A DNA stretch of 64,000 nt from Prescottella agglutinans (GTDB lineage Bacteria > Actinomycetota > Actinomycetes > Mycobacteriales > Mycobacteriaceae), in assembly GCF_004011865.1 (NCBI RefSeq), contig NZ_RKLP01000007.1, positions 186,001 to 250,000 of the forward strand, given 5' to 3'. Shown piece by piece: positions 5,399-64,000 of the stretch. The notes below the pieces were generated by a model. That model made no database searches, had not been told where the DNA came from, and was given only the letters and a program-made list of their open reading frames with translations. The translations under genes were made by a program, and so were the position numbers. Within the stretch, counting starts at the first letter, position 1; each line of letters begins with the position of its first letter.

Positions 5399-6720
5399 GC
5401 CGTGACCCTCATGCGGTCGAACATCCCCGGTTCCAGGGCCGACCAACCGAACTCGTTGCGGACCTGTGCCAGGTAGTCGCGGAATGCGTGGGCGTCGACG
5501 TACGCGCTGTGCCGGTCGGTGCCGATGAACGAGATGCCGCCGCTCAGGTCGGGACGATCGGTGGCCATCTTGCGATCGAACAATGCTGCGCGCGCCGGAT
5601 TGTGTCGCTGATCGTGCAGGTACTGGGCGAGCACATTCGTCACCTGGTCGAACAGGGTGTACGCACTGGAGTTGGTCTCCAGGTAGCCGACGCCGAACAG
5701 GTTCCGCTGCCTCGGGTTGAACGCCGTCAGGTAGAGCCGGGGACGTCCGTGCGCCCAGTCGAAACAGTCGTCCGGCGCGTACGGGATCGCCCAGTCGTAC
5801 CCGGTGGCGTACAGCACCAGGTCGATCTCGCGGCTCGAGCCGTCGGTGAACTCGACCCTCGACCCGGCCAGTCGCGCAACGTCGGAGACGATCGAGACGT
5901 CGCCGTGCTGAAGATGATGGACCAGTTGGCTGTTGAGCAACGGATGCGACTCGAGCAGCTTGTGGTCGGGGCGGGGCAGGCCCAACCGCGTCAGGTCCCC
6001 CTGCAGCAACCGCAGCATCCCCGTCAGGAGCGGACGTTCGACCGCCAGCGGCAGCCTCGGCCCCTTCTCGGCGAACACGTCGGTCGGCGTCCCGAGGATG
6101 TGCTTGGGGATGATGTGGTAGCCGCGCCGCACGCTGACGTACGTCTCGGACGCCGACGCCGCTGCGTCGCAGGCGATGTCCGCACCCGAGTTGCCGAGGC
6201 CGACGATGAGTACACGCTTGCCGCGGAACTCGTCGATCCCGCGGTACGTCACCGCGTGCCGCACCTCACCGTCGAAGTTGCCCGGATGCACCGGGATTCG
6301 CGGCCGCCACGTCACACCGGTCGCGCAGACCACCGCGCGGTAGCCGCGCCGCTCCCCCGTCGACAGCCGTACCGACCAGCCCTCGCCGTCCGGCACGACC
6401 TCGTCGATCGACGTGCCGAACCGGATGGCGTCGTACAGCCCGTAGGCGCGCGCGAAGCTGCGCGTGTAGTCGAGGATCAACCGGTTTCCCGGGTAGTCGG
6501 GAAACGAGTCCGGCATCGGGAAGTCGTGGAACCCGGACATCGTGCGTGACGAGATGAAGTGAGCCGACTCGTACATCGGCGTTCCGGGATTGTCGAGATC
6601 CCAGATTCCCCCGACGTCGCTGTGCCGCTCGTACTGGTCGTACTCGATTCCGAGCCCCCGAAATGCCCGGGCCGCGGACAGTCCAGCCGGCCCGGCCCCC
6701 ACAATGCACACCCGATCCAT
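5395..6720 (-). CDS. Flavin-containing monooxygenase
   Basis: A 441-residue class B flavoprotein monooxygenase. The FAD motif GAGPAG is at residues 8-13, the FMO fingerprint FDGEVRHAVTY (FxGxxxHxxxY) near 150, and the NADPH motif GLGNSGAD near 172. Such enzymes insert oxygen into soft nucleophiles or ketones. ATG 6720 is chosen because the FAD motif must be close to the N-terminus and GGAAGGGG precedes it; the longer frame upstream is not protein-like. It is the first gene of an apparent operon with SDR and rhomboid-like genes. Confidence 0.8.
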   Translation of the reverse strand: MDRVCIVGAGPAGLSAARAFRGLGIEYDQYERHSDVGGIWDLDNPGTPMYESAHFISSRTMSGFHDFPMPDSFPDYPGNRLILDYTRSFARAYGLYDAIRFGTSIDEVVPDGEGWSVRLSTGERRGYRAVVCATGVTWRPRIPVHPGNFDGEVRHAVTYRGIDEFRGKRVLIVGLGNSGADIACDAAASASETYVSVRRGYHIIPKHILGTPTDVFAEKGPRLPLAVERPLLTGMLRLLQGDLTRLGLPRPDHKLLESHPLLNSQLVHHLQHGDVSIVSDVARLAGSRVEFTDGSSREIDLVLYATGYDWAIPYAPDDCFDWAHGRPRLYLTAFNPRQRNLFGVGYLETNSSAYTLFDQVTNVLAQYLHDQRHNPARAALFDRKMATDRPDLSGGISFIGTDRHSAYVDAHAFRDYLAQVRNEFGWSALEPGMFDRMRVTA

Positions 6721-7020
6721 GGGTCGATCCCCTTCCGTCACCGGACATTCAACCCGCCCCCTTCCCTCGATGCGGTGAATTGAGTCGATGGGAGGTGCGT
6801 CCGACGCGTTGCCGAGTGAATGTGAACCGTCGGTAGGGATTCGGGAATTCCATTGGTTCCGTCCAGTACAGACTTCTGCTATCGGAAGGCGGTGCGGCGG
6901 ACATCGACAGAAGTCCGCCGCCGGACTATCGAGTTTCCTTGCAGGACAATGGATCAGCCGGGGTCTGCGCCCGCGATCCCCCGACGTCGCTGGCGTCACG
7001 CCTGGGCGCTGGTCCCCTAC
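6721..7020. other. Intergenic region upstream of the flavin monooxygenase
   Basis: This is 300 nt between the end of the TetR gene and the start of the monooxygenase gene. It should hold the monooxygenase promoter, but no strong -35/-10 pair stands out. The one clear structure is the stem-loop listed separately at 6894-6921. No coding region is supported. Confidence 0.4.
6894..6921 (-). terminator. Perfect 9-bp stem-loop downstream of the TetR gene
   Basis: GCGGCGGAC (6894-6902) is repeated inverted at 6913-6921 with a 10-nt loop. It lies about 100 nt beyond the stop of the TetR gene in its direction of transcription. There is no T-tract, which is common for GC-rich actinobacterial terminators. 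It could instead be an operator for the monooxygenase operon. Confidence 0.4.
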
Positions 7021-7758
7021 TCAGCTCTCCACAGGAAGGCCGGCCGCTACCCCGTCGAGGACGCGTTCGAGTCCGTATCGGAAGCGCTCCCCCGGGGGCA
7101 GGTGCGGTACCCGCGCCTCTCTGATCGTGCGTTCGAACATCGGATACTCCCCCGAGGCGACAACCTCGGCAACATACGGCCCCACGTACCCACTCATCCA
7201 CTGCGCCATGTCCATACCAGTGCGACGAGCCTGCTCGATCCACCCGATCTCTCGATGCACCGCACTGTGGGTGTAGTCGCTCACCATGCCGGCCAATGCT
7301 GCGATCTCGTCGATGTTCAAGCCCAGGCCGTCGAGTGCGGCCAGGGCGAACTCCTGCACGCGCAACGAGTTCGGCCCCAGCGTGGGACGCCTGTTGGCGA
7401 GGGCGATCTGCCAGGGGTGACGCAAACCCACCGCGCGCGTCTGCTCGGCAACGAGCGTCAAATCCCGCCGCCAGTCGCCACTCGGACGCACCGGCAGGGC
7501 GATCTCCCCCACCACCGCGTCGATCATGAGATCCACCAGATCGTCGCGACCGGAGACATACCGGTACAGCGCCATGGCGCCGGTGCCCAGTTCCGAGGCG
7601 ACGCGCCGCATTGTCACGGCGTCCATCCCCTCGTCGTCGGCGACTCCGACGGCGGCCTGCGTGATCTGGGCGCGGCTGTAGCCCGGCCGACGCCCCGGAC
7701 CGGAGCGTTCGCTCGCCTCGGGGCGCAGCCAGATCGTCGTGTCCTCGTGGCGCGGCAT
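7021..7758 (-). CDS. TetR/AcrR-family transcriptional regulator
   Basis: A 245-residue regulator. The N-terminal helix-turn-helix runs from about residue 25 to 72 (SRAQITQAAVGVADDEG, then LYRYVSGRDDLVDLM), followed by a TetR C-terminal ligand domain (TetR_C-like, with TRAVGLRHPW). I prefer ATG 7758 over ATG 7764 because the GAAAGGGG site then has a 6-nt spacer. It is divergent from the SnoaL-like gene, and two palindromic sites lie between them, so it most likely represses both itself and the neighbouring pair. Confidence 0.85.
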   Translation of the reverse strand: MPRHEDTTIWLRPEASERSGPGRRPGYSRAQITQAAVGVADDEGMDAVTMRRVASELGTGAMALYRYVSGRDDLVDLMIDAVVGEIALPVRPSGDWRRDLTLVAEQTRAVGLRHPWQIALANRRPTLGPNSLRVQEFALAALDGLGLNIDEIAALAGMVSDYTHSAVHREIGWIEQARRTGMDMAQWMSGYVGPYVAEVVASGEYPMFERTIREARVPHLPPGERFRYGLERVLDGVAAGLPVES

Positions 7759-7776
7759 GGGCATCCCCTTTCTCGC

Positions 7777-7821
7777 GTACACCGTACTTGAATGCACGAG
7801 AACATTACGAGTACGGTGTAC
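7777..7821. promoter_or_regulatory. Twin TetR operator in divergent promoter region
   Basis: Two 11-bp palindromes of form GTACN3GTAC occur at 7777-7787 and 7811-7821. They are inverted copies of one another: GTACACCGTACT at 7777-7788 pairs with AGTACGGTGTAC at 7810-7821. Their centres are 34 bp apart, close to three helical turns. The position between divergent genes, one of them TetR, makes this the likely operator. Confidence 0.7.
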
Positions 7822-7867
7822 CCAATTAGATCCACCCTCGGTAGTCCACGAAGCGAAGGGATGGAAC

Positions 7868-8290
7868 ATGAATGGTCGACCGATGTTGAGTGACGCCTCG
7901 CGCGACGCTGCGGCGCGTCAGGTGGCAGCCGAATTCGCCGACGGGTTACAGCGGTCCGGCGACGCCGACGAGTACGACGCGGCCTTCGCCGCGGACGTGC
8001 TGTGGGGCAGCCCTTTCGGGGCGAGCGTGGCCGGCTTCGCCGAACTGAACGCGATCCATCACCGCCTGGTCGCCGCCAGTGCCGCTCCCCCGTCGCGATT
8101 CGAGGTGGTCGCCGCCCTGTCACCCGCTCCCGGTGTCGTGGTGACACAGATCCGCAGGCAGGCAACCGATCCCGAAGGGTTCTCCGAGATGGCGATGTAC
8201 GTCCTGGTCGAACGCGACGGCCGGTGGTGGCTGGCGGCGGCCCAGAACACCCCTGTCCACGCCCCTACCCTCTCACCCGAAAGGCGCTGA
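7868..8290 (+). CDS. SnoaL-like / NTF2-fold protein
   Basis: A 140-residue protein of the SgcJ/SnoaL-like NTF2 fold: an N-terminal helix ([14 protein letters not shown]) with [20 protein letters not shown], then beta strands ending in [15 protein letters not shown], a hallmark of this group. Members are small cup-shaped enzymes or binding proteins. ATG 7868 has GAAGGG upstream. It is 5 nt from the deazaflavin oxidoreductase gene and divergent from the TetR gene, so the three form one regulon. Confidence 0.75.
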
Positions 8291-14360: not shown

Positions 14361-15521
14361 TCAGCCGGGGAGAACCGTCAGCCCGTGCGGGCGGCGGTTC
14401 ATCGGCTCGCAGCCGTCGGCCGTCACCACCACGATGTCCTCGATCCGGGCGCCCCACCGACCGCGGAAGTAGATGCCCGGTTCGACGCTGAACGCCATGC
14501 CCGGCTCGAGCACCACCGTGTTGCCGGCGACGATGTACGGCTCCTCGTGGACCGACAGCCCGATGCCGTGCCCGGTTCGGTGCACGAACACCTCGGCGAG
14601 ACCCGCGTCGGCGAGCACGTCCCGGGCGGCAGCGTCGACCGATTCCGCGGTGACACCGGGACGCACCGCAGCGACCGCCGCCCGCTGCGCCGCCTCGAGC
14701 ATCCCGATCTGCTCCGCGACGTCCGCCGCGGGCTCGCCGAGGCTGTACGTGCGGGTGGAATCCGAGTTGTAGCCGGGGTCGACCGGACCGCCGATGTCGA
14801 TCACCACGACATCGCCGGATTCGATGACCCGATCGGACACCTCGTGGTGCGGGTCGGCGCCGTGCGGGCCCGATCCGACGATCACGAACGCCGCCTCGGT
14901 GTGGCCCTCCGCCAGGATCGCGTCGGTGATGTCGGCCGCGACTTCGGCCTCCGTGCGACCCGGACGGAGCCATTCGCCCATTCGCGCGTGCACCCGGTCG
15001 ATCGCGGCGCCCGCCCGCCGCAGCGCCTCGATCTCGGCGTCGTCCTTGATCATCCGCAGCTCACGCAGCACACCGGTGGCCAACACGGGCACCGTGCCGA
15101 ACCGTCGCGCCAGCGGAACCAGGTGCAGCGCCGGCATCGCGTCGGTGACCGCGGTGCGCGGGGACTCCGGCAGCAGCGAGGACACCAACTCGTAGGGGTC
15201 GACGCCGTCCACCCAGTCGTGCACCGGCAGGCCGAGGTCGGCGACGGCCGAATCGCCCAGCGACGCAAGCTCGAGCCGCGGCAGCACGACCGACGGCGCA
15301 TTCCCGTCGGACGGCACCACCAGGCACGTCAGACGCTCGAACGAGTCGGCTCGCGACCCGATCAGGTAGCGCAGGTCCGGTCCCGGCGTGATGAGCAGGC
15401 CGTCCAGCCCGGCGCGCTCGGCGAACTGCGCGGCTCTGGCCAGGCGGTCCGCGTAGACGGCGGAGGGGAAACGAGACGACGCCGCGGAGGGTTGGGCGCT
15501 GGGGGCACTCTCGGAACTCAT
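14361..15521 (-). CDS. pepE: Xaa-Pro dipeptidase/aminopeptidase, M24 family
   Basis: A 386-residue 'pita-bread' metallopeptidase. The N-terminal creatinase-like domain (residues ~20-150) precedes the catalytic domain, which shows the metal ligands DIGGPVD (Asp), DSTRTYSLG (Asp), HRTGHGIGLSVHEEP (His) and two late glutamates in EPGMAFSVEPG and GARIEDIVVV. It removes residues N-terminal to proline or cleaves Xaa-Pro dipeptides in the cytoplasm. It corresponds in position to Rv2089c pepE. It converges on the secreted-protein gene with 12 nt between stops. Confidence 0.9.
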   Translation of the reverse strand: MSSESAPSAQPSAASSRFPSAVYADRLARAAQFAERAGLDGLLITPGPDLRYLIGSRADSFERLTCLVVPSDGNAPSVVLPRLELASLGDSAVADLGLPVHDWVDGVDPYELVSSLLPESPRTAVTDAMPALHLVPLARRFGTVPVLATGVLRELRMIKDDAEIEALRRAGAAIDRVHARMGEWLRPGRTEAEVAADITDAILAEGHTEAAFVIVGSGPHGADPHHEVSDRVIESGDVVVIDIGGPVDPGYNSDSTRTYSLGEPAADVAEQIGMLEAAQRAAVAAVRPGVTAESVDAAARDVLADAGLAEVFVHRTGHGIGLSVHEEPYIVAGNTVVLEPGMAFSVEPGIYFRGRWGARIEDIVVVTADGCEPMNRRPHGLTVLPG

Positions 15522-15527
15522 GGAATC

Positions 15528-15533
15528 AGGCTA
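15528..15533 (-). promoter_or_regulatory. -10 element TAGCCT for pepE, leaderless start
   Basis: On the minus strand TAGCCT is followed by 6 nt and then the ATG at 15521. No ribosome-binding site is seen, so the message is probably leaderless. Confidence 0.55.
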
Positions 15534-15659
15534 GGCCGTCCGAGGTTCGGATGCGGCGGGAGCCGCTCACCCACCTTCACGAGAACCCGATCGTGTCGGT
15601 GCCCGTCGCTAGCGTCCCGGCGCGTACACAGAAACAGGTCGGGGACCTCGAGGAGCTGC

Positions 15660-55545: not shown

Positions 55546-55844
55546 AGTTCTTCGACGGACACGCGATGCATCCAGGGTTCAACCGCTCGACTCGGAGCAT
55601 CACTCCACTCCCGCGACTCCCGTTGCGACAGAAACCTTCTCCTAGAAGCAGTCGATCCGGTAGCGCATGCGGGACGTGACGCACCACGCCGGTCGACACC
55701 ATCCCCCGTGCGGCAGCGAGACGGCCCGCGGATTCGGGTATTCCTGCGGTTCCGTCTCGAACCGAGTTCTACCACGCGACACGCCCGACACGATTCGGCT
55801 TATCTTCCGTTTCCGTTGCGCACAGAGTGACTACTGTTGCCGAT
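55546..55844. other. Spacer upstream of the defence locus
   Basis: Almost 300 nt without a supported gene and with a visibly lower GC content than its surroundings. It includes the TACTGT -10 of the following gene and another TATCTT at 55801-55806. No attachment site, tRNA or repeat was recognised, but this is the likeliest left boundary of the Wadjet island. Confidence 0.4.
55832..55837 (+). promoter_or_regulatory. -10 element TACTGT upstream of the AbiEi-like gene
   Basis: TACTGT is 7 nt before GTG 55845, the same arrangement as other leaderless genes here. It favours GTG 55845 over the in-frame GTG 55827. Confidence 0.45.
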
Positions 55845-56915
55845 GTGACCACTGCGGACGTTGCACCGAACCCGAGGCCCGAACGGAGCATCGACATCTA
55901 CCGCCGTTCGGTGTCGTGGCTCGAGACCCACCTCCCCCGCGGCTGGACCGTGTCCGCGGATCGGCCCCGCTCCCCCGCGGCGCCCAATCGTCTGCTGATC
56001 ACGGCGCCCGACGGCGACACGGTCTCGTACTCGATCGTCACGTCGAAGGGCGTGCTCAGCGGCGACGTCGCCCGCATCTCCGCCGAATTGTCCGACAGCG
56101 ATCGGGCATTCGTGTGTGCGCACTACCTGTCGGACCCGGTGCGCCGCCAACTCGACGGGCACGGGATCTCGTACGCCGACGCCACCGGCAACGTCAACCT
56201 CGTCGCGGAGCGGCCCGCGATCTGGGTGCGCAACCGCGGCGCGGACGCCGACCCCTGGCGGGGGCCGGGCCGTCCGTCCGGCGTGCTCACCGGCGAACCG
56301 TCCGAACGTGTGGTCCGCGCGCTCGCCGACCACACCGGTGAACTGTCGGTTCCCGAACTGATCAGGCTCTCCGGCGCGTCCACGGGTGCGGCGTACCGGG
56401 TGGTCGAGGTGCTCTTCGAGCGCGAACTGCTCACCCGTCTCCCGCGCGGCCCGATCACCGACGTCCGGTGGCAGCACATGCTGCGGGCGTGGGCGGCCGA
56501 CCGCAAACCCTGTCCGACACGCGGTTTCGCGGCACCCGGCGGTCTCGACGACCTGCGCTCCCGCCTGGCCGCGACCAACGGCGATCTCGGCTACGCCGTC
56601 ACCGGGATCGGCGCCACCGACTACGCCACCCCCACCGTGATCGAGGTGTACGCCGACGACGTCGACGCGTTCGCCGCCGCGCTGGATCTGCGGCCCGTCG
56701 ACGGCGGAGCCGACATCGTCGTGGCCACGCCGTGGTCGGCGGTGGTGTTCGACCGCATGCAGTACCGCGACGGGCTGCGCTGCGTCGCCCCGGCGCACGC
56801 GTACGCGGACCTGGTCGCGGGTCCGTTCCGGCACCCGGACGCCGCCGACTACCTGCTGACGACGCTCAGCGCGGACGAATCCGCGTGGCGCCGGCCCCTG
56901 CGTCGTACGCGGTGA
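55845..56915 (+). CDS. Winged-helix / AbiEi-antitoxin-like protein upstream of jetA
   Basis: A 356-residue soluble protein. The N-terminal half (1-~120) ends with GISYADATGNVNLV, a motif seen in a family of proteins annotated as AbiEi-type antitoxin-like. The middle (about 145-195, ALADHTGELSVPELIRLSGA, then YRVVEVLFERELLTRL) is a winged helix. The C-terminal part (DVDAFAAALDLRPVDGGADI) resembles the nucleotidyltransferase-like tail of such proteins. No AbiEii-type toxin follows; instead jetA begins after 49 nt. It may be the regulator of the Wadjet operon or an extra component. The family call is tentative. Confidence 0.5.
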   Translation: MTTADVAPNPRPERSIDIYRRSVSWLETHLPRGWTVSADRPRSPAAPNRLLITAPDGDTVSYSIVTSKGVLSGDVARISAELSDSDRAFVCAHYLSDPVRRQLDGHGISYADATGNVNLVAERPAIWVRNRGADADPWRGPGRPSGVLTGEPSERVVRALADHTGELSVPELIRLSGASTGAAYRVVEVLFERELLTRLPRGPITDVRWQHMLRAWAADRKPCPTRGFAAPGGLDDLRSRLAATNGDLGYAVTGIGATDYATPTVIEVYADDVDAFAAALDLRPVDGGADIVVATPWSAVVFDRMQYRDGLRCVAPAHAYADLVAGPFRHPDAADYLLTTLSADESAWRRPLRRTR

Positions 56916-56952
56916 CCGACCGGCGTGTTCGCTCGCGGACCGGCCGACGCCC

Positions 56953-56958
56953 TAGGCT
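56953..56958 (+). promoter_or_regulatory. -10 element TAGGCT for jetA, leaderless start
   Basis: TAGGCT is followed by 6 nt and GTG 56965, so jetA should have its own leaderless transcript separate from the gene upstream. This favours GTG 56965 over GTG 56959. Confidence 0.55.
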
Positions 56959-56964
56959 GTGACG

Positions 56965-58476
56965 GTGAGCGATTCAGGTGACCCGGGGACGGTCGCAGAC
57001 GTCGATTTCGCCGCGCGTGAGGACCGGCTGCGGCTGTTCTCCTTCACGACGGCCGAGAAGCGCACCGAGTACCTGTGGGTGCTGCGCGCGTTCGACAACG
57101 CGCGCGCCAATTACGTGGTCCTGTTGCACGCGGGTGAGGTCGCGGACATTCTCGCGCGCACCGCCGGCGACGACCCGTCCGGCGCCCTCACCTCGGCCGA
57201 GATCACCCCGCTGCTGGAGCAGTTGCACACGTGGGGCGTCCTGGAACGCAGCTACGACGGCAGCCGCGCCGCCACGCTCGCCGAGTACCGCAACCGGCAC
57301 TTCGTCTACCAGTTCAGCCAGGCCGGCTACCTGGCGTTCCGGGCCGTCGAGGACCTCCTCGGTGCCCGGCTCGAGGACGCGACCCTCTCCCGGCTCGCGC
57401 TGCCGGACCTGCTCGCCGACCTCGAGGAACTCGCCGAGGCCAACCGTCGCGGCGACGACGACCTGATCTACCGCAAGCTCTCCCGCCTGGATTCCACGCT
57501 CACCGACATGGCCGCCCGCGCGGCGCAGTTCTACCTGATGCTCGGGGACCTGGTGCGCACCACGGAGATCACCCCCGAGGCGTTCCTCGCCCACAAGGAC
57601 GCGCTGCTCAGCCACATGCGGGAGTTCAGCTCGGACCTGGCGCGCTACGCGCCGAAGCTCGCGGCCGCGATCGCACTCGTGGAGTCCACCGGCATCGACG
57701 CCCTGATCGCGCGTGCCGCGGCCAGCGACGAGCGCCTGTTCATGTCCCGCGAGGATCGTGAATCCGACTGGCGGGCACGCTGGTCGGGGCTGGCGCAGTG
57801 GTTCGTGGCGGCCGCGGGCCCGAGCGAGTCCGATCGGCTGCGGGAAGGCACGATGAGCGCGATCGCGGCCGTGCTGTCGCTGCTGCGACGCGTCACCGAG
57901 ACCCGGCGCGGCGGCGTGAGCCGGGAGAGCCAGCTGCGCCACCTCGCCGGCTGGTTCGCCGCGACGCCCACCGAGGACTCGGCGCACGCGCTGTTCCAGC
58001 TGGTGTTCGACCTCGGCCGCCCGCGCCACCTGTCGATGGTCCACCCGGACGCCGACATCATCCCCGACTCGCGGTCGTGGTGGGACGCGACGCCGGTCGA
58101 GATCTCCCGCACGCTCGCCGAGACCGGGCGGGCGGCGACGCCGGGGATGCCGTCGCGCGTGCAGCGCAACGAGGGCAGCATCCGACGGCTCCGGGAGGAA
58201 CAGTTGGCCGGCCAGCGCGCCCGCGCCGTCGCGGCGTCCTCGCTCGCCGCGAAGGGCGCCTACGACCGGGTGCTCGACGCGCAGGAGACCGACGTGCTGC
58301 TGAGCCTGCTCAACGCGGCGCTCACCGCGCGGGTGCCGGTCAGCGGCGAGGTCCCCAGCTCGACGGGCTCGGAGAACGGAGTCCGGCTGACCCTGAGCCC
58401 GCACGCGGAATCCACGGTGGTCCAGACCGCCCGCGGCCGTCTCCACCTCGACGGACTGCAGGTGAGCGTGAAGTGA
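56965..58476 (+). CDS. jetA: Wadjet component JetA (DUF2397 / TIGR02677)
   Basis: A 503-residue helical protein. LRLFSFTTAEKRTEYLWVLR is the recognisable start of the DUF2397 family, followed by LLEQLHTWGVLERSYDG and YQFSQAGYLAFRAVEDLLGA. It plays the kleisin (MukF-like) part of the Wadjet SMC complex, linking the JetC heads and binding JetB. Wadjet complexes extrude DNA loops and lead to cleavage of small circular plasmids by JetD. The gene order A-B-C and the family types correspond to the class I recall as Wadjet type II. It overlaps jetB (GTGA). Confidence 0.85.
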   Translation: MSDSGDPGTVADVDFAAREDRLRLFSFTTAEKRTEYLWVLRAFDNARANYVVLLHAGEVADILARTAGDDPSGALTSAEITPLLEQLHTWGVLERSYDGSRAATLAEYRNRHFVYQFSQAGYLAFRAVEDLLGARLEDATLSRLALPDLLADLEELAEANRRGDDDLIYRKLSRLDSTLTDMAARAAQFYLMLGDLVRTTEITPEAFLAHKDALLSHMREFSSDLARYAPKLAAAIALVESTGIDALIARAAASDERLFMSREDRESDWRARWSGLAQWFVAAAGPSESDRLREGTMSAIAAVLSLLRRVTETRRGGVSRESQLRHLAGWFAATPTEDSAHALFQLVFDLGRPRHLSMVHPDADIIPDSRSWWDATPVEISRTLAETGRAATPGMPSRVQRNEGSIRRLREEQLAGQRARAVAASSLAAKGAYDRVLDAQETDVLLSLLNAALTARVPVSGEVPSSTGSENGVRLTLSPHAESTVVQTARGRLHLDGLQVSVK

Positions 58477-59897
58477 GGGCCCGCACCGTCTCCCCGCTGG
58501 ACCTCGACTCGTACCAGCGGGCCGCCCGCGTCATCCTGTCCAATCACCTTGTGACGCAGACCTACCCGGACCGTCTGGCGCTGCCGCTGCTGCGCCGGTG
58601 GGCCACCGAACTGCGCGACGACCTACTCGAGCTGTTCGGGTACCGCCTCGAGGTGACCGAGACGACGGCACGCCTGTTCACGGTGCCCGACCGGCTCACA
58701 CCGGGCACCCCCGCCCGAACCACCAACGACCGCACCTTCGACCGCCACCGGTACGCCTACCTGGCGCTCGCGCTCGCGGCCCTCGGACGCGCCGGCAACC
58801 AGATCACGCTCTCGGAGTTGGCCGACCACGTCGCCGCCGAGGCCGCGCAGGTCCCCGGGGTGGCGTTGTCGACAGACCGGGCCGCGGACCGTGACGCGTT
58901 CGTCGACGCGGTCGGCTGGCTCGCGGCACGCGGCGCGATCGTCCTCGCCGACGGCGACGCCGGCGGCTGGGCGTCGAATCCCGCTGCGGGCGAGGCGCTC
59001 TACGACATCGACCGCTCCGTGGTCGTCGCCCTGTTCCGGCCGCCGCGGGCGCTGCAGCACCTGACGTCGGTGCGGTCGCTGCTCGCGGGCGAGCAGTCGG
59101 CTCTCGACGAGGACGCGATCGGGTACCGCCCCGCCGATCCGCGGGAGATTTCGCGCCGGATGCGGCGCGCGCTCGTCGAACGTCCCGTCGTGTACGCGGA
59201 CGAGTTCGGCGACGACGAACGACTCCAGTTGGCGCTCCCCCGCACGGCGTCCGACGTCGAGGACCTGACCGGACTGGTGGCCGAGCGCCGCGCCGAGGGC
59301 ATCGCGATGATCGACCCGTCCGGCCGGATGTCGGACGTCCGGTTCCCCAGCACGGGCACCGTCGCCCAGGTGGCGCTGCTGCTGGCCGGCGAGATGGCCG
59401 ACCGAGTCCTCGACCTGGATGCGCCCGAACTCCCCCGGCACCCGCTTCCCGACTCCGGTCAGCACGATCTGATCGCCCACCTGGACGCCGCGATCCCCAG
59501 TGCCGGGATCTTCGAGCACCTCGCCGACGACGCCGGGGACGCCCCCGCCGATCTCTTCACGCCGGTGGACGACCGCCCCGAACCGGCCCGATACGCGCTG
59601 CTCGACGACGTGTGGCTGGCGGCGGCCGTCGACGAACTGGTGCGCCAGTTCGGACGCACGTTCGCCGCGCAGTGGCAGGCCGATCACGACGGCCTGCGGC
59701 GCAGCGCCGTGGCGCTGCTCGCGCGCCTGGACCTCGTCCGGCGCGTCGACGACGGCGTGCTGGTGCTACCGGCCATCGCACGTTTCCGCGGCGTCGTCGT
59801 CAACATCCGCGACCGCACCGCACAGTCCGATCTGTTCCACGAACCGGTTCCCGGCGAACCTTCGAGCACCGACGAACCCACCTCCGTAGAGAAGTAG
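58473..59897 (+). CDS. jetB: Wadjet component JetB (DUF2398 / TIGR02678)
   Basis: A 474-residue protein. The segments YQRAARVILSNHLVTQTYPD, LELFGYRLEVTETTARLFTV, RHRYAYLALALAALGRAGNQ and WLAARGAIVLADGDAGGW are typical of DUF2398. It is the KITE-like (MukE-like) winged-helix subunit that dimerises and binds JetA and DNA. It is somewhat longer than I expect for the family (about 400), mainly in the C-terminal third. The GTG start overlaps the jetA stop; jetC begins 13 nt after its stop. Confidence 0.85.
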   Translation: MRARTVSPLDLDSYQRAARVILSNHLVTQTYPDRLALPLLRRWATELRDDLLELFGYRLEVTETTARLFTVPDRLTPGTPARTTNDRTFDRHRYAYLALALAALGRAGNQITLSELADHVAAEAAQVPGVALSTDRAADRDAFVDAVGWLAARGAIVLADGDAGGWASNPAAGEALYDIDRSVVVALFRPPRALQHLTSVRSLLAGEQSALDEDAIGYRPADPREISRRMRRALVERPVVYADEFGDDERLQLALPRTASDVEDLTGLVAERRAEGIAMIDPSGRMSDVRFPSTGTVAQVALLLAGEMADRVLDLDAPELPRHPLPDSGQHDLIAHLDAAIPSAGIFEHLADDAGDAPADLFTPVDDRPEPARYALLDDVWLAAAVDELVRQFGRTFAAQWQADHDGLRRSAVALLARLDLVRRVDDGVLVLPAIARFRGVVVNIRDRTAQSDLFHEPVPGEPSSTDEPTSVEK

Positions 59898-59910
59898 AGG
59901 CACATTTCGT

Positions 59911-62900
59911 ATGGCACACGCGCGTTTCAAGCCGACCCGCGCCGGGATCGTCAACCTGTGGGACTACCGCGACCAGGAGTTCTCGTTCGCCGACGGCCGC
60001 CTGGTGCTGCGCGGGCCCAACGGTTCGGGCAAGACGAAGGCGCTCGAGGTGCTGTTCCCCTTCGTGTTCGACGGCCGCATCGAGCCGCGCCGCCTCAACC
60101 CGTTCGCGGGCGAGGAACGGACCATGAAGTCGAATCTGCTCTACCGCGGCCAGGATTCGGCCCACTCGTACGTGTGGATGGAGTTCTGCCGCGGACCGCA
60201 GGACGACCCGGAGGCGGTCACCGTCGGCATCGGGATGCGTGCGACCCGCCAGAACGACAAGGTCACCCGGTGGTACTTCGTCGCGGAGGGCCGGGTGGGT
60301 GTCGACTTCTCGCTGCTCGGCGGCGACGACCGGCCACTCACCAAGAAACAGCTCGCCGAGCAGCTCGGCAGTGACGCCATCACCGACCGCCCGGTCGACT
60401 ACCGTGCCGCGATCGACGCCCGGTTGTTCGGACTCGGGGCCGAACGCTACGACCAGCTGATCAACCTGATCCTGACGCTGCGCCGCCCCCAGCTCGCGAA
60501 GAACCTCGACCCGAAGGGCCTGTCGCAGGCGCTCACCGACGGACTTCGCCCGCTCGACGAGCAGCTCGTGCTCGAGGCGGCCCGCTCCTTCAGCGACATG
60601 GAGGAGGTGGGCCGTGCACTCGAGGGGCTGGCGGCCGCCGACCAGGCCGCGCAGAGTTTCGTGACCGTGTACTCGAAGTACCTGGCCCAGCAGGCCCGCA
60701 CGGACGTCGAACAGGTGGCCCGCCGGCTCGAGTCCGTCGACCGGGCCAAGGCAGTGCTCGACGAGGCACTCGCGCGGCAGACGTCCCGCCAGGAGGAGCG
60801 CCTGCTCGCCGAGGAGCGGTTCACCGTCGCCGAGCGCGCGCTCGAGCAGGCCCGCGCCGACCTCGACACCCTGCAGCGCTCCGGCGCGTACGAGGGCAAG
60901 CAGCAGCTCGACGACCTCGCGGCCGCCGTCGAGCAGCTCAAGGTGTCGACCGCGCAGCAGGCCGACAAGGCACGCAAGGCGCAGGCAACGCTCGAGCAGC
61001 GCACCGACGAGGCCGTGCGCGCGACCGACGCGGTGCGCCGGGCGAGCGCGGCCATGGTGCGCGCCGAGGAGGAGCTGGCCGAGTCGGCCGAGCAGGCCGG
61101 GATCGCGTGGACCCCGCTGCCGGAGGGCGCGCGGGCCGACCAGATCACCACCACCGTCCGCGGACACGCCGAGGAACGCGACGGCGACGTGCGCGCCGTG
61201 CGCGCGGCGCTGGCCACGGTCGAGAAGGCCACCACGGAGCGGGACCGCGCCGACCGCGCAGCGGACAAGGGCCGCGAACTGCTCGACGCTGCCCAGGCCG
61301 CGGTCGCCGAGGCCGAGGCCTCCGTGGAACTGGCCCGGGCGGACTGCGCGGCCGCGTTGCGCGGATGGTGGACGGAGCATTCGTCCGAGTACGCCTCGAT
61401 CGGGGTGACCGCCGACCTGTTCGCGGCCCTGGATGCGGCGCTCGCGCAGGCCGGCGAGGACGACTCCCCCAGCCTGACGACCGTGCTCCACGAACAGACC
61501 CAGTCGGCGCTCGACGAGCAACGCGCCCAGCGACGTGACGCGGCGGCCGCGCAGTCCGCGACCGCCGAACGGATCACCGCGCTGCGCGCCGACCGGAAGC
61601 GCGTCGCCGCCGAACACGACGACGCCCCCGCCGGATTCGCGTTCCGCACCGGTGACCGCGCCGACCTCCCCGGCGCTCCGCTGTGGCGTCTGGTGCGGTT
61701 CGCCGACGGTGTCGACCCGGCCGTCGCGGCCGGCGTCGAATCCGCGCTGGCCGCGGCGAACCTCCTCGACGGCTGGGTGTTCGGCGGGGACGGTCCGCTC
61801 CCGGACCTCCCGTCCGAGCAGTTCCTCACGCCGCTGCCCGCGGATCGTCGACCGGACGGTCCGACGCTGGCCGACGTGCTCGAGGTGGAACCCGACGCCG
61901 GCGTGTCCGAGGCGACCGTGCAGGCCGTCCTGGACTCGGTGGCACTCGACCGCACCGGCACGGCCGGGGCCGCCGCCGTCGGGGTCGGGGTGGACGGCCA
62001 CTTCTGGCAGGGCGTCCAGCGCGGCCGCCACGTCAAGGCGGACGCCGAGTACATCGGCACCACCGCGCGCGAGCGGCGCCGCGCCCAACGCCTCGAGGAA
62101 CTCGACGACGAGATCGCGGCCGCGGAGGAAGCCCTGGGTGCCGCCCGCGACGCCGAGGCCGAGACCGCCGCGGTCCTCGAGCGGCTGGCGGGTGCCGGCA
62201 AGGCGCTGCCGCGGACGTCGGGCGTGCTCGCCGCGATCAAGAAGCTCACCGAGTCGGCCGGCGCCCTGCGCACCCGGTCCGAGTCCACGGCCACCGTCGG
62301 CGAGGAACTCGATCAGGCGATCGCCGACCACACCGCCAAGGAGAAGCAGCTGCGCGCGGTCGCCGTGACGCACCGCACGTCCCATCAGGCCCGGGACGTC
62401 GACGCGCTCGCGGCCGCGATCCGGCACTTCGAGAACCAGGGCGAACAGCTGCTCCGCTGCCGCCGTGAGCACGAGAAGGAACTCGAACTGCACCGGGAGG
62501 CCGACGACCGCCTCGAGGAGGCGCGCGGGAACGCCGAGGAGTTCGTCGAGGAGGCCGCGGTCGCCGAGGAGAACTACGCGCAGCAGGTCTCCCGCCTCGA
62601 GACCCTCCGCGAGGCGCTCGGCGCCAGCGCCGAACAGATCGACGCCGAGCTCGAGCAGGCCAGGGCCCGCATCGAGGTGTGCAAGACCGAGCAGCGCGCG
62701 GCCCGCAAGACGTACGACGCCGCGGTCGAGCAGATCGGCAAGGCCGAGGGCGCACACGCCGCCGCCATCGAGACCCTGCGCAGCGCGCTGACCGAAACCC
62801 GTTCGGACGCAGACCGACTCGCACCCTACGCGCGGCGCGACCTGCTGGATCTGCTCGGCGCCCCGACCCAGCACGCGTGGCCGCAGAGTTCCGCGGCGTG

Positions 62901-64000
62901 GCTGAGCCCGGACCAGCTGGTGTACCGGATCGCCACGGAGGGTGATCCCGACGCGCCGATCCTGCCGCCCGAGGTGGAGGCCCTCTACCGGGCGCTGGAC
63001 GCGGCCACCGCGTCGGTAAAGACCAGCGAGAACGCGAAGAAGTCGACCCGCTCGGCGCTCACGGCGGCGCTCCAGGACTTCGACGCCCAGCTGGCCGCGG
63101 CCGGTCAGGACTACCGGCTGCAGTGGGACGCACCGGACGGGCTCACCGTCGTCCGCGTGCAGGACGACCAGGGCTACTCGTCGATCGGCGAGTTCGCGAC
63201 CCGGATCAGCGCGGCGCGCCGAGATCAGGAAGTGCTGCTGACGGATTCGGAGCGGCGCATCCTCGAGGACGCGCTGCTGACCGGTCTCGCGCAGCAGATC
63301 CACGAGCGCACCGCGGACGCGCGCGACCTCATCGCGCAGATGGGTGCCGAGATGCGCGAGCGGCGCATGTCGTCCGGCAGCACGATCGGCGTGCACTGGG
63401 TGCTCGCCGACAACCTCGACGACAGTTCACGAGCCGTGTCGAAGCTGCTCGACCGGGCGACGTCGGCGTTGAGCGCCGACGAATTGGCCACCATCCGAGC
63501 ACATTTCGCGGCGCAGGTACGCATCGCCCGGGCCGCCCACCCCGAGCGGTCGTACCCGGAGATCCTGGCGGCGGCGCTCGACTACCGGCGTTGGCGGGTG
63601 TTCTCGTTCACCCTCATCGGCGGCGACGGCAGCGAGGACCGGCTCACCGTGGCCCGGCACAGCGCACTGTCCGGCGGCGAGCAGTCGGTGTCGCTGCACC
63701 TGCCGCTGTTCGCGGCGGCGCACGTCATGCTGTCGTCCGCCGATCCGCACTCGCCGCGCCTGCTCGGACTCGACGAGGCATTCGCCGGCGTGGACGACAA
63801 CGGCCGTAGCGAACTCCTCGGTCTGAGCGTGCAGTTCGATCTCGATCTGTTCATGACCGGCTACGACCTGTGGATCACGTACGCGGGCGTGCCGGGGTGT
63901 GCCCACTACGACCTCGCGCATTCGACCGCGGAGCAGAGTGTGAGCGCGGCGCTGCTCGTGTGGTCGGGCGGCGGACTGCTCGCGGAGCACGACGGGAGCA
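59911..64000 (+). CDS. jetC: Wadjet SMC-like ATPase JetC (TIGR02680), cut by the right edge
   Basis: The frame is open from ATG 59911 to the end of the window: 1363 codons, close to the full size of the family. Walker A GPNGSGKT is at residues 35-42. Long heptad-rich, Glu/Ala/Arg-rich coiled coils fill about 270-560 and 710-970. A globular hinge-like region near 585-700 begins APLWRLVRFADG. The ABC signature LSGGEQ is at 1253-1258 and Walker B LLGLDEAF around D1288-E1289. It is the MukB-like motor of the complex. A long ORF on the opposite strand here is only a codon-bias shadow. The missing tail should be short, and jetD is expected next. Confidence 0.9.
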   Translation, partial: MAHARFKPTRAGIVNLWDYRDQEFSFADGRLVLRGPNGSGKTKALEVLFPFVFDGRIEPRRLNPFAGEERTMKSNLLYRGQDSAHSYVWMEFCRGPQDDPEAVTVGIGMRATRQNDKVTRWYFVAEGRVGVDFSLLGGDDRPLTKKQLAEQLGSDAITDRPVDYRAAIDARLFGLGAERYDQLINLILTLRRPQLAKNLDPKGLSQALTDGLRPLDEQLVLEAARSFSDMEEVGRALEGLAAADQAAQSFVTVYSKYLAQQARTDVEQVARRLESVDRAKAVLDEALARQTSRQEERLLAEERFTVAERALEQARADLDTLQRSGAYEGKQQLDDLAAAVEQLKVSTAQQADKARKAQATLEQRTDEAVRATDAVRRASAAMVRAEEELAESAEQAGIAWTPLPEGARADQITTTVRGHAEERDGDVRAVRAALATVEKATTERDRADRAADKGRELLDAAQAAVAEAEASVELARADCAAALRGWWTEHSSEYASIGVTADLFAALDAALAQAGEDDSPSLTTVLHEQTQSALDEQRAQRRDAAAAQSATAERITALRADRKRVAAEHDDAPAGFAFRTGDRADLPGAPLWRLVRFADGVDPAVAAGVESALAAANLLDGWVFGGDGPLPDLPSEQFLTPLPADRRPDGPTLADVLEVEPDAGVSEATVQAVLDSVALDRTGTAGAAAVGVGVDGHFWQGVQRGRHVKADAEYIGTTARERRRAQRLEELDDEIAAAEEALGAARDAEAETAAVLERLAGAGKALPRTSGVLAAIKKLTESAGALRTRSESTATVGEELDQAIADHTAKEKQLRAVAVTHRTSHQARDVDALAAAIRHFENQGEQLLRCRREHEKELELHREADDRLEEARGNAEEFVEEAAVAEENYAQQVSRLETLREALGASAEQIDAELEQARARIEVCKTEQRAARKTYDAAVEQIGKAEGAHAAAIETLRSALTETRSDADRLAPYARRDLLDLLGAPTQHAWPQSSAAWLSPDQLVYRIATEGDPDAPILPPEVEALYRALDAATASVKTSENAKKSTRSALTAALQDFDAQLAAAGQDYRLQWDAPDGLTVVRVQDDQGYSSIGEFATRISAARRDQEVLLTDSERRILEDALLTGLAQQIHERTADARDLIAQMGAEMRERRMSSGSTIGVHWVLADNLDDSSRAVSKLLDRATSALSADELATIRAHFAAQVRIARAAHPERSYPEILAAALDYRRWRVFSFTLIGGDGSEDRLTVARHSALSGGEQSVSLHLPLFAAAHVMLSSADPHSPRLLGLDEAFAGVDDNGRSELLGLSVQFDLDLFMTGYDLWITYAGVPGCAHYDLAHSTAEQSVSAALLVWSGGGLLAEHDGS

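Follow-up and report, generated by a model that had tools for sequence, protein, structure and literature searches.

Wadjet type II systems comprise JetA, JetB, JetC, and JetD, and we take EptABCD of M. smegmatis to be one of them; MksBEF of Pseudomonas aeruginosa, a Wadjet-like structural maintenance of chromosomes (SMC) complex without the nuclease, is nearer to Wadjet type I. In B. subtilis, plasmid suppression needs all four Wadjet subunits, and the review that states this holds that MksBEF likely arose through loss of JetD, giving a chromosome SMC complex (PMC10586767). Among toxin-antitoxin systems, the operator of the antitoxin AbiEi is described as two 23-bp inverted repeats lying 3 bp apart at the abiE promoter (PMC7319586). 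BrxR, a WYL-type regulator found in defense islands, is described as a repressor (PMC9122601). Here we describe a locus at the end of a 64,000-nucleotide stretch of Prescottella agglutinans DNA (the window, which lies on contig C20, the whole genome measuring 5.4 Mb) in which a gene, here called X, precedes the type II Wadjet genes jetA, jetB, and jetC, with no jetD found in the genome. The combined explanation that we favor, and consider moderately probable, is that X is an orphan regulator from an AbiE-like pair standing beside a JetD-less type II Wadjet core.

The features of the locus, all on the + strand, are as follows.

55733..55765, +, distal operator-like site, exact (motif search)
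55794..55826, +, proximal operator-like site, exact (motif search); its TTCCGT is the putative X -35 box (by eye)
55832..55837, +, TACTGT, putative -10 box for leaderless transcription of X (by eye), 7 nt before the GTG
55845..56915, +, X, predicted orphan AbiEi-type DNA-binding protein of 356 aa (GTG start at 55845, stop at 56913-56915)
X residues about 14-114, PD-(D/E)XK-like N-terminal domain (predicted structure)
X residues 148-210, winged helix (predicted structure)
X residues 232-351, AbiEi/pseudo-nucleotidyltransferase-like C domain (predicted structure)
56953..56958, +, TAGGCT, putative -10 box of a second, likewise leaderless promoter serving jetA (by eye)
56965..58476, +, jetA (DUF2397), type II, GTG start at 56965 (PADLOC, NCBIfam, Pfam)
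58473..59897, +, jetB (DUF2398), type II, its GTG at 58473 overlapping the end of jetA
59911..64000 in the window, +, jetC (SMC-type ATPase, TIGR02680), type II (PADLOC, NCBIfam)

An earlier note on this DNA had described an extra gene lying 49 nt before jetA on the same strand, seemingly DNA binding and antitoxin-like, without a toxin partner and with a predicted leaderless promoter of its own, and had recognized jetA, jetB, and jetC with their expected motifs. The open frame and its stop agree with the first point, and the by-eye -10 box fits the proposed promoter, TACTGT or TATTGT standing at the same place in five of the six relatives compared (the exception is L006). The Wadjet genes are equally clear: PADLOC assigned JetA2, JetB2, and JetC2 with E values of 1.2e-185, 3.5e-211, and 0; TIGR02677, TIGR02678, and TIGR02680 scored above their NCBIfam cut-offs; and JetC contains the Walker A motif GPNGSGKT, SGGEQ, and DEAFAG. 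In gene order, families, and ATPase motifs, this locus is like Wadjet type II.

The nearest named relatives of X are from Rhodococcus and Prescottella. Its predicted structure (pLDDT 88) is in keeping with DNA binding and with likeness to an antitoxin: the winged helix and the C domain, which aligns with AbiEi, resemble AbiEi of S. agalactiae and Rv2827c of M. tuberculosis, whereas the N-terminal domain is additional and the toxin is missing. The protein falls just below the Pfam cut-off for HTH_IclR (21.9 bits against 22) and weakly matches MarR_2; its Pfam matches include no IclR ligand domain and, unlike the BrxR-type regulators that it resembles in lying beside a defense-type operon, no WYL domain was found. 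PADLOC gave no match to X at E values up to 1, and at the same limit AbiEi_2 was matched by 15 of 26 members of the X family (best, 1.4e-4), the X protein of the window itself not being among them. As in AbiE, relatives of X are partnered with a nucleotidyltransferase, encoded downstream in 20 of 23 distant loci (7/7 loci on database contigs and 13/16 copies in genomes of the bacterial family); the partner differs from that of AbiE in belonging to the NTP_transf_8 family, with a weak AbiEii match in one of four. No toxin gene lies beside X, and none that convinced was found in the genome; X appears to be a solitary AbiEi-type antitoxin whose fold has been kept. Profile comparisons added little: against solved structures, X gave weak rows only, mostly beta-lactamases (best E value, 0.11), and the nucleotidyltransferase, whose structural model was poor (pLDDT 58.6), gave nothing at E values up to 1; the two family profiles did not match each other. 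Three X homologues with a full palindromic operator have no adjoining nucleotidyltransferase match (L058, L061, and L062) and may be other orphans or have a different partner.

The stop codon of jetC lies 83 nt beyond the window (equivalent to position 64083). The jetD that the earlier note had proposed to look for beyond 64000 does not follow it; 332 nt downstream, and in the same orientation, comes a GH19 chitinase-like gene. Nor did four genome-wide searches detect a JetD: JetD_C (PF09983) had no match, its control being found in Corynebacterium glutamicum; DUF2399 (PF09664) had none, a weak negative because its control was silent; TIGR02679 had none at E values up to 1e-5; and the JetD of genome G110, used as a query without a control, had none at E values up to 10. 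By these searches the JetD nuclease is missing from this genome, in which the locus differs from Wadjet type II, and the name Wadjet defense operon in its full sense is not supported. A role for X as a substitute for JetD was rejected, because X also occurs in loci that keep JetD (L069 and the twice-represented locus L024/L070).

JetD has apparently been lost recurrently across the bacterial family, with JetABC retained. In scans for X, JetA, and JetD in which about six candidates were scored per genome after the first pass, and on which the absences depend, JetA was present in 129 of 301 genomes and type II JetD (TIGR02679) in 39, all of them JetA bearing; in the own genus of the window, JetA was found in 14/14 genomes and JetD in 0/14. 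Among the matches listed, 38 of 150 JetA places had JetD within 12 kb. A set of 65 JetC loci, 15 with and 50 without JetD (L024 and L070, as well as L027 and L115, being duplicates), was compared around mshC, which we take to encode the mycothiol ligase (its Pfam match is tRNA-synt_1e). Of the 15 JetD loci, 12 have this gene on the opposite strand, 1,234 to 1,300 nt past jetC. It is only 20 to 65 nt past jetC in 14 of the 50 loci without JetD, which look as if jetD alone had been excised; in the other 36 it is more distant or outside the examined stretch. In L024/L070 and L069, the JetD-bearing Rhodococcus loci, the gap from the stop codon of jetC to jetD is 3 nt. A FastTree tree of JetC (56 rows) requires no fewer than six changes in the presence of JetD, all of them forced by starred branches, with the caveats that long branches meet and that such counts do not distinguish gain from loss. 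The distances of JetC and JetD are correlated at 0.976 (91 nonindependent pairs from 14 loci), and this congruence, together with the shared site, favors loss over gain.

All three ATPase motifs are present in long frames in 44 of the 50 JetD-less loci; the exceptions are four loci represented by partial stretches (L008, L010, L011, and L040) and two members of a distant subtype (L078 and L079). In addition, dN/dS values of 0.02 to 0.31 for jetA, jetB, and jetC in eight pairs indicate purifying selection. That JetABC is a remnant decaying after JetD loss is accordingly quite improbable, even though genome G134 has X and no JetA at E values up to 1e-10. No clear signature of JetD contact emerged from residues separating JetD-bearing from JetD-less loci, the columns being scattered (conserved with JetD, two in JetA, three in JetB, and nine in JetC; the converse, two in JetC). 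The complex is like MksBEF in lacking the nuclease and differs from it in being type II by PADLOC and in the apparent recurrence of the loss within one family. The position beside mshC is shared by jetABC(D) across several genera (L080, L089, L090, L095, and L097-L103, among others), a pattern that speaks more for long-standing vertical inheritance of the site than for a mobile defense island. In the record of Prescottella defluvii (L008), X, jetB, and jetC are in broken pieces, through either sequencing error or decay.

The second line of evidence concerns the motif TTCGG-N12-TTCCGT-N6-C-N-GA, which was derived by eye upstream of X loci, so that its recurrence there is partly circular. The C.GA element, unused in the selection, is nevertheless present in all 36 distinct training sites, and within the same 1.635 Mb the motif had 59 exact and 35 one-mismatch occurrences against none of either for its reversal (42 and 262 against 7 and 83 at two and three mismatches). 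Among toxin-partnered relatives, the site makes up one half of a 51-bp palindrome, with two facing 23-bp repeats spaced 5 bp apart, and the outer half, for which no selection was made, has 0 or 1 mismatches in all 12 sites. Toxin-type loci have the full palindrome in 9/23 cases and the half-site in 11/23 (three share one sequence); among orphan-clade loci, 33/44 carry the half-site (one mismatch or none) and 0/44 the palindrome (44 loci, 41 distinct). The two inverted 23-bp repeats before the gene in relatives of X recall AbiE (PMC7319586), from which X differs in that its operator is cut to one repeat and part of the second and that some copies stand before jetA. X very probably binds this motif. 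The overlap of the proximal site with the putative X -35 box suits autorepression, as reported for AbiEi, and self-repression by X is probable, if a little less so than binding.

The motif tends to occur together with X. An exact motif and X occur together in 57 of the 301 genomes, X alone in 12, the motif alone in 12, and neither in 220 (P = 2.6e-37, uncorrected for kinship); a second count dropped five X-less genomes having only a site of the coding-frame type, a rule that was not applied to X-bearing genomes. An exact site was found in 53 of 58 orthologue-clade genomes and in 4 of 11 with only toxin-type X. The genome of the window has six exact 14-base sites, two before X, one at 6840, two more that are intergenic (rough gene calls were used to place two of the intergenic sites), and one coding (C19:303155, in a methyltransferase-like frame; sites of this pattern recur elsewhere). 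Allowing up to two mismatches brings the number of sites to 55, compared with 11 for the control; most of the 55 lack an AT-rich center, and a wide genomic regulon was rejected, since only about eight of the 55 look real by eye. Five of these eight are on contig C20, which has two operator-like sites 1.5 kb apart at C20:36811 and C20:38341, about 205 kb from X. The third exact site of the window (6840-6872) lies between a TetR-type gene (7021-7869, minus strand) and a flavin-monooxygenase-like gene (minus strand, start near 6720), on the strand opposite both neighbors (names by eye); it is a possible further target of X.

Upstream of jetA, the motif with at most one mismatch was found in 9 of 34 loci (8/32 distinct) from genomes with a Rhodococcus-type X, namely, seven opacus-group rows (one duplicated), G175, and G049, and, at up to three mismatches, in none of 31 loci from genomes without one; a toxin-type X is encoded on a different contig of G116, which is among the 31. 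Further opacus-group sites before jetA were seen in G229, G237, and G265, and the X-less opacus-type genomes G194 and G271 have none. The opacus-group site ends an estimated 60 to 90 nt above the putative leaderless -10 box (nearer in G049), a spacing that would fit with activation, with looping, or with regulation of an additional start. In genomes of the ruber and aetherivorans types, an exact site stands before the gene preceding jetA (L010, 14427; L011, 14470), which in L011 is a cluster c29 gene (14544-15581); an operon link is possible, and the site was not counted among those of jetA. Control of jetABC by X in the opacus group appears rather likely.

How far this extends to the genus of the window is less certain. 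The own genus, the erythropolis group, and those g27 loci that were examined showed no site before jetA, nor did the X-bearing G289 (the same as L021). Here, jetA has its own putative promoter, the -10 box being TAGGCT or TACGCT in the four relatives compared, 6 nt before the start codon, so that X could exert influence only by read-through or from a distance. JetA also occurs without X (E values up to 1e-20) in 69 of 129 genomes. The adjacency itself appears to be one ancestral neighborhood stretched by insertions rather than a repeated independent association: among 50 rows of groups g1, g23, and g27 in which X and JetA share a contig, jetA is downstream and codirectional in 49 (in the 50th, G163, X is split across contig ends), at less than 1 kb in g1 and nine g23 rows, 1.4 to 1.7 kb in 12 g23 rows, and 10.8 kb in one, and at 4.7 to 40 kb in 10 and 146 to 283 kb in four g27 rows. 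The earlier note had proposed scoring co-occurrence within 5 kb, and the expected closeness was found in the own genus (13/14, X in the 14th being split over contig ends adjacent to jetA) and g23 (21/26) and not in g27 (2/18) or g25 (0/1). Since X persists far from or without jetABC (9 of 69 X genomes have no JetA), it is not an obligatory part of Wadjet. The suggestion of the note that X could repress the operon gains some support from the operator-like motif that precedes X and, in some lineages, jetA; control of jetABC in this genome is a tentative proposal, with somewhat less than even prospects. A gene of cluster c16 separates X from jetA in the opacus group and L027 and is present without jetABC in L026; it encodes a 385-aa protein (L021, 11257-12414, and seven other loci) that is actin/Hsp70-like by eye and has no Pfam match at E values up to 0.1.

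These facts can be read in several ways. X might be a mere neighbor at the same site, the motif serving X alone and its copies before jetA being by-products of rearrangement; the single inherited adjacency, the separate jetA promoter, the distances of up to 283 kb in g27, and the 16 of 38 Rhodococcus-type loci (L003-L040) without jetABC in the examined flanks (three on short contigs) speak for this, and we give it a real but minority chance. Byproducts of rearrangement would hardly be expected to keep the fixed bases of the jetA-upstream sites while their 12-base spacers differ, and the 31 loci without a Rhodococcus-type X are devoid of such sites. It is also conceivable, if improbable, that X is chiefly an anti-addiction antitoxin against incoming NTP_transf_8 toxins, for instance on plasmids, rather than a regulator. 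Relatives of X are found on Rhodococcus and Streptomyces plasmids, a nucleotidyltransferase-like gene adjoining three of the four opened, and G118, G204, and G277 (L053, L054, and L055) hold an orphan X plus a separate complete antitoxin-nucleotidyltransferase pair; the plasmid relatives are, however, about 28 to 36% identical to X, which makes cross-neutralization doubtful, and both the winged helix and the conservation of the operator speak for DNA binding. We think it similarly improbable that JetABC still defends against plasmids with a nuclease encoded elsewhere. The purifying selection and intact ATPase motifs would agree with this, as would the description of sensing by JetABC and cutting by JetD as separate tasks (PMC10586767), but no JetD homologue was found by a search that covered JetD only and no other nuclease families, and in JetD-less loci mshC or other genes directly follow jetC with no JetD match.

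In the explanation that we favor, X would descend from the antitoxin and repressor of a type IV pair resembling AbiE, made up of an AbiEi-like protein and an NTP_transf_8 nucleotidyltransferase, the toxin gene having been lost in the Rhodococcus/Prescottella lineage and the antitoxin kept as a stand-alone DNA-binding regulator. X would bind the 23-bp repeat TTCGG-N12-TTCCGT over its own -35 box and repress itself; where a gene lies between X and jetA, it would also act at the site upstream of jetA, and where jetA directly follows, as here, it may affect jetABC via its own promoter. Lacking JetD, JetABC would still load on DNA and use ATP to extrude loops, but plasmids would not be cut through the known route, a role deduced from its family; the complex would likely serve in chromosome or plasmid handling, as MksBEF does. 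Such a nuclease-free function seems somewhat more likely than not. In a further-reaching idea, a toxin-antitoxin pair and an anti-plasmid machine would each have lost their killing part at one site and their remnants would have been wired together, the orphan antitoxin dosing a nuclease-free type II Wadjet that is now an accessory chromosome condensin in Rhodococcus and its relatives; this is unlikely on present evidence.

That JetD loss can lead to a chromosome SMC complex has already been proposed for MksBEF in the review cited above (PMC10586767). The open-licence literature searched yielded neither a description of JetD-less type II loci from this bacterial family nor one of an AbiEi-type orphan adjoining Wadjet. 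According to one survey, 73% of Rhodococcus genomes have a Wadjet along with restriction-modification and a further system (PMC10482375), a figure to be set against the 0/14 own-genus genomes with JetD; a Wadjet call made from JetABC alone need not mean plasmid defense. Repeated loss of JetD, constrained JetABC, and relatives that keep JetD at the same site together offer a natural series for the study of nuclease-free motor function, and the orphan X provides a concrete candidate regulator with its operator.
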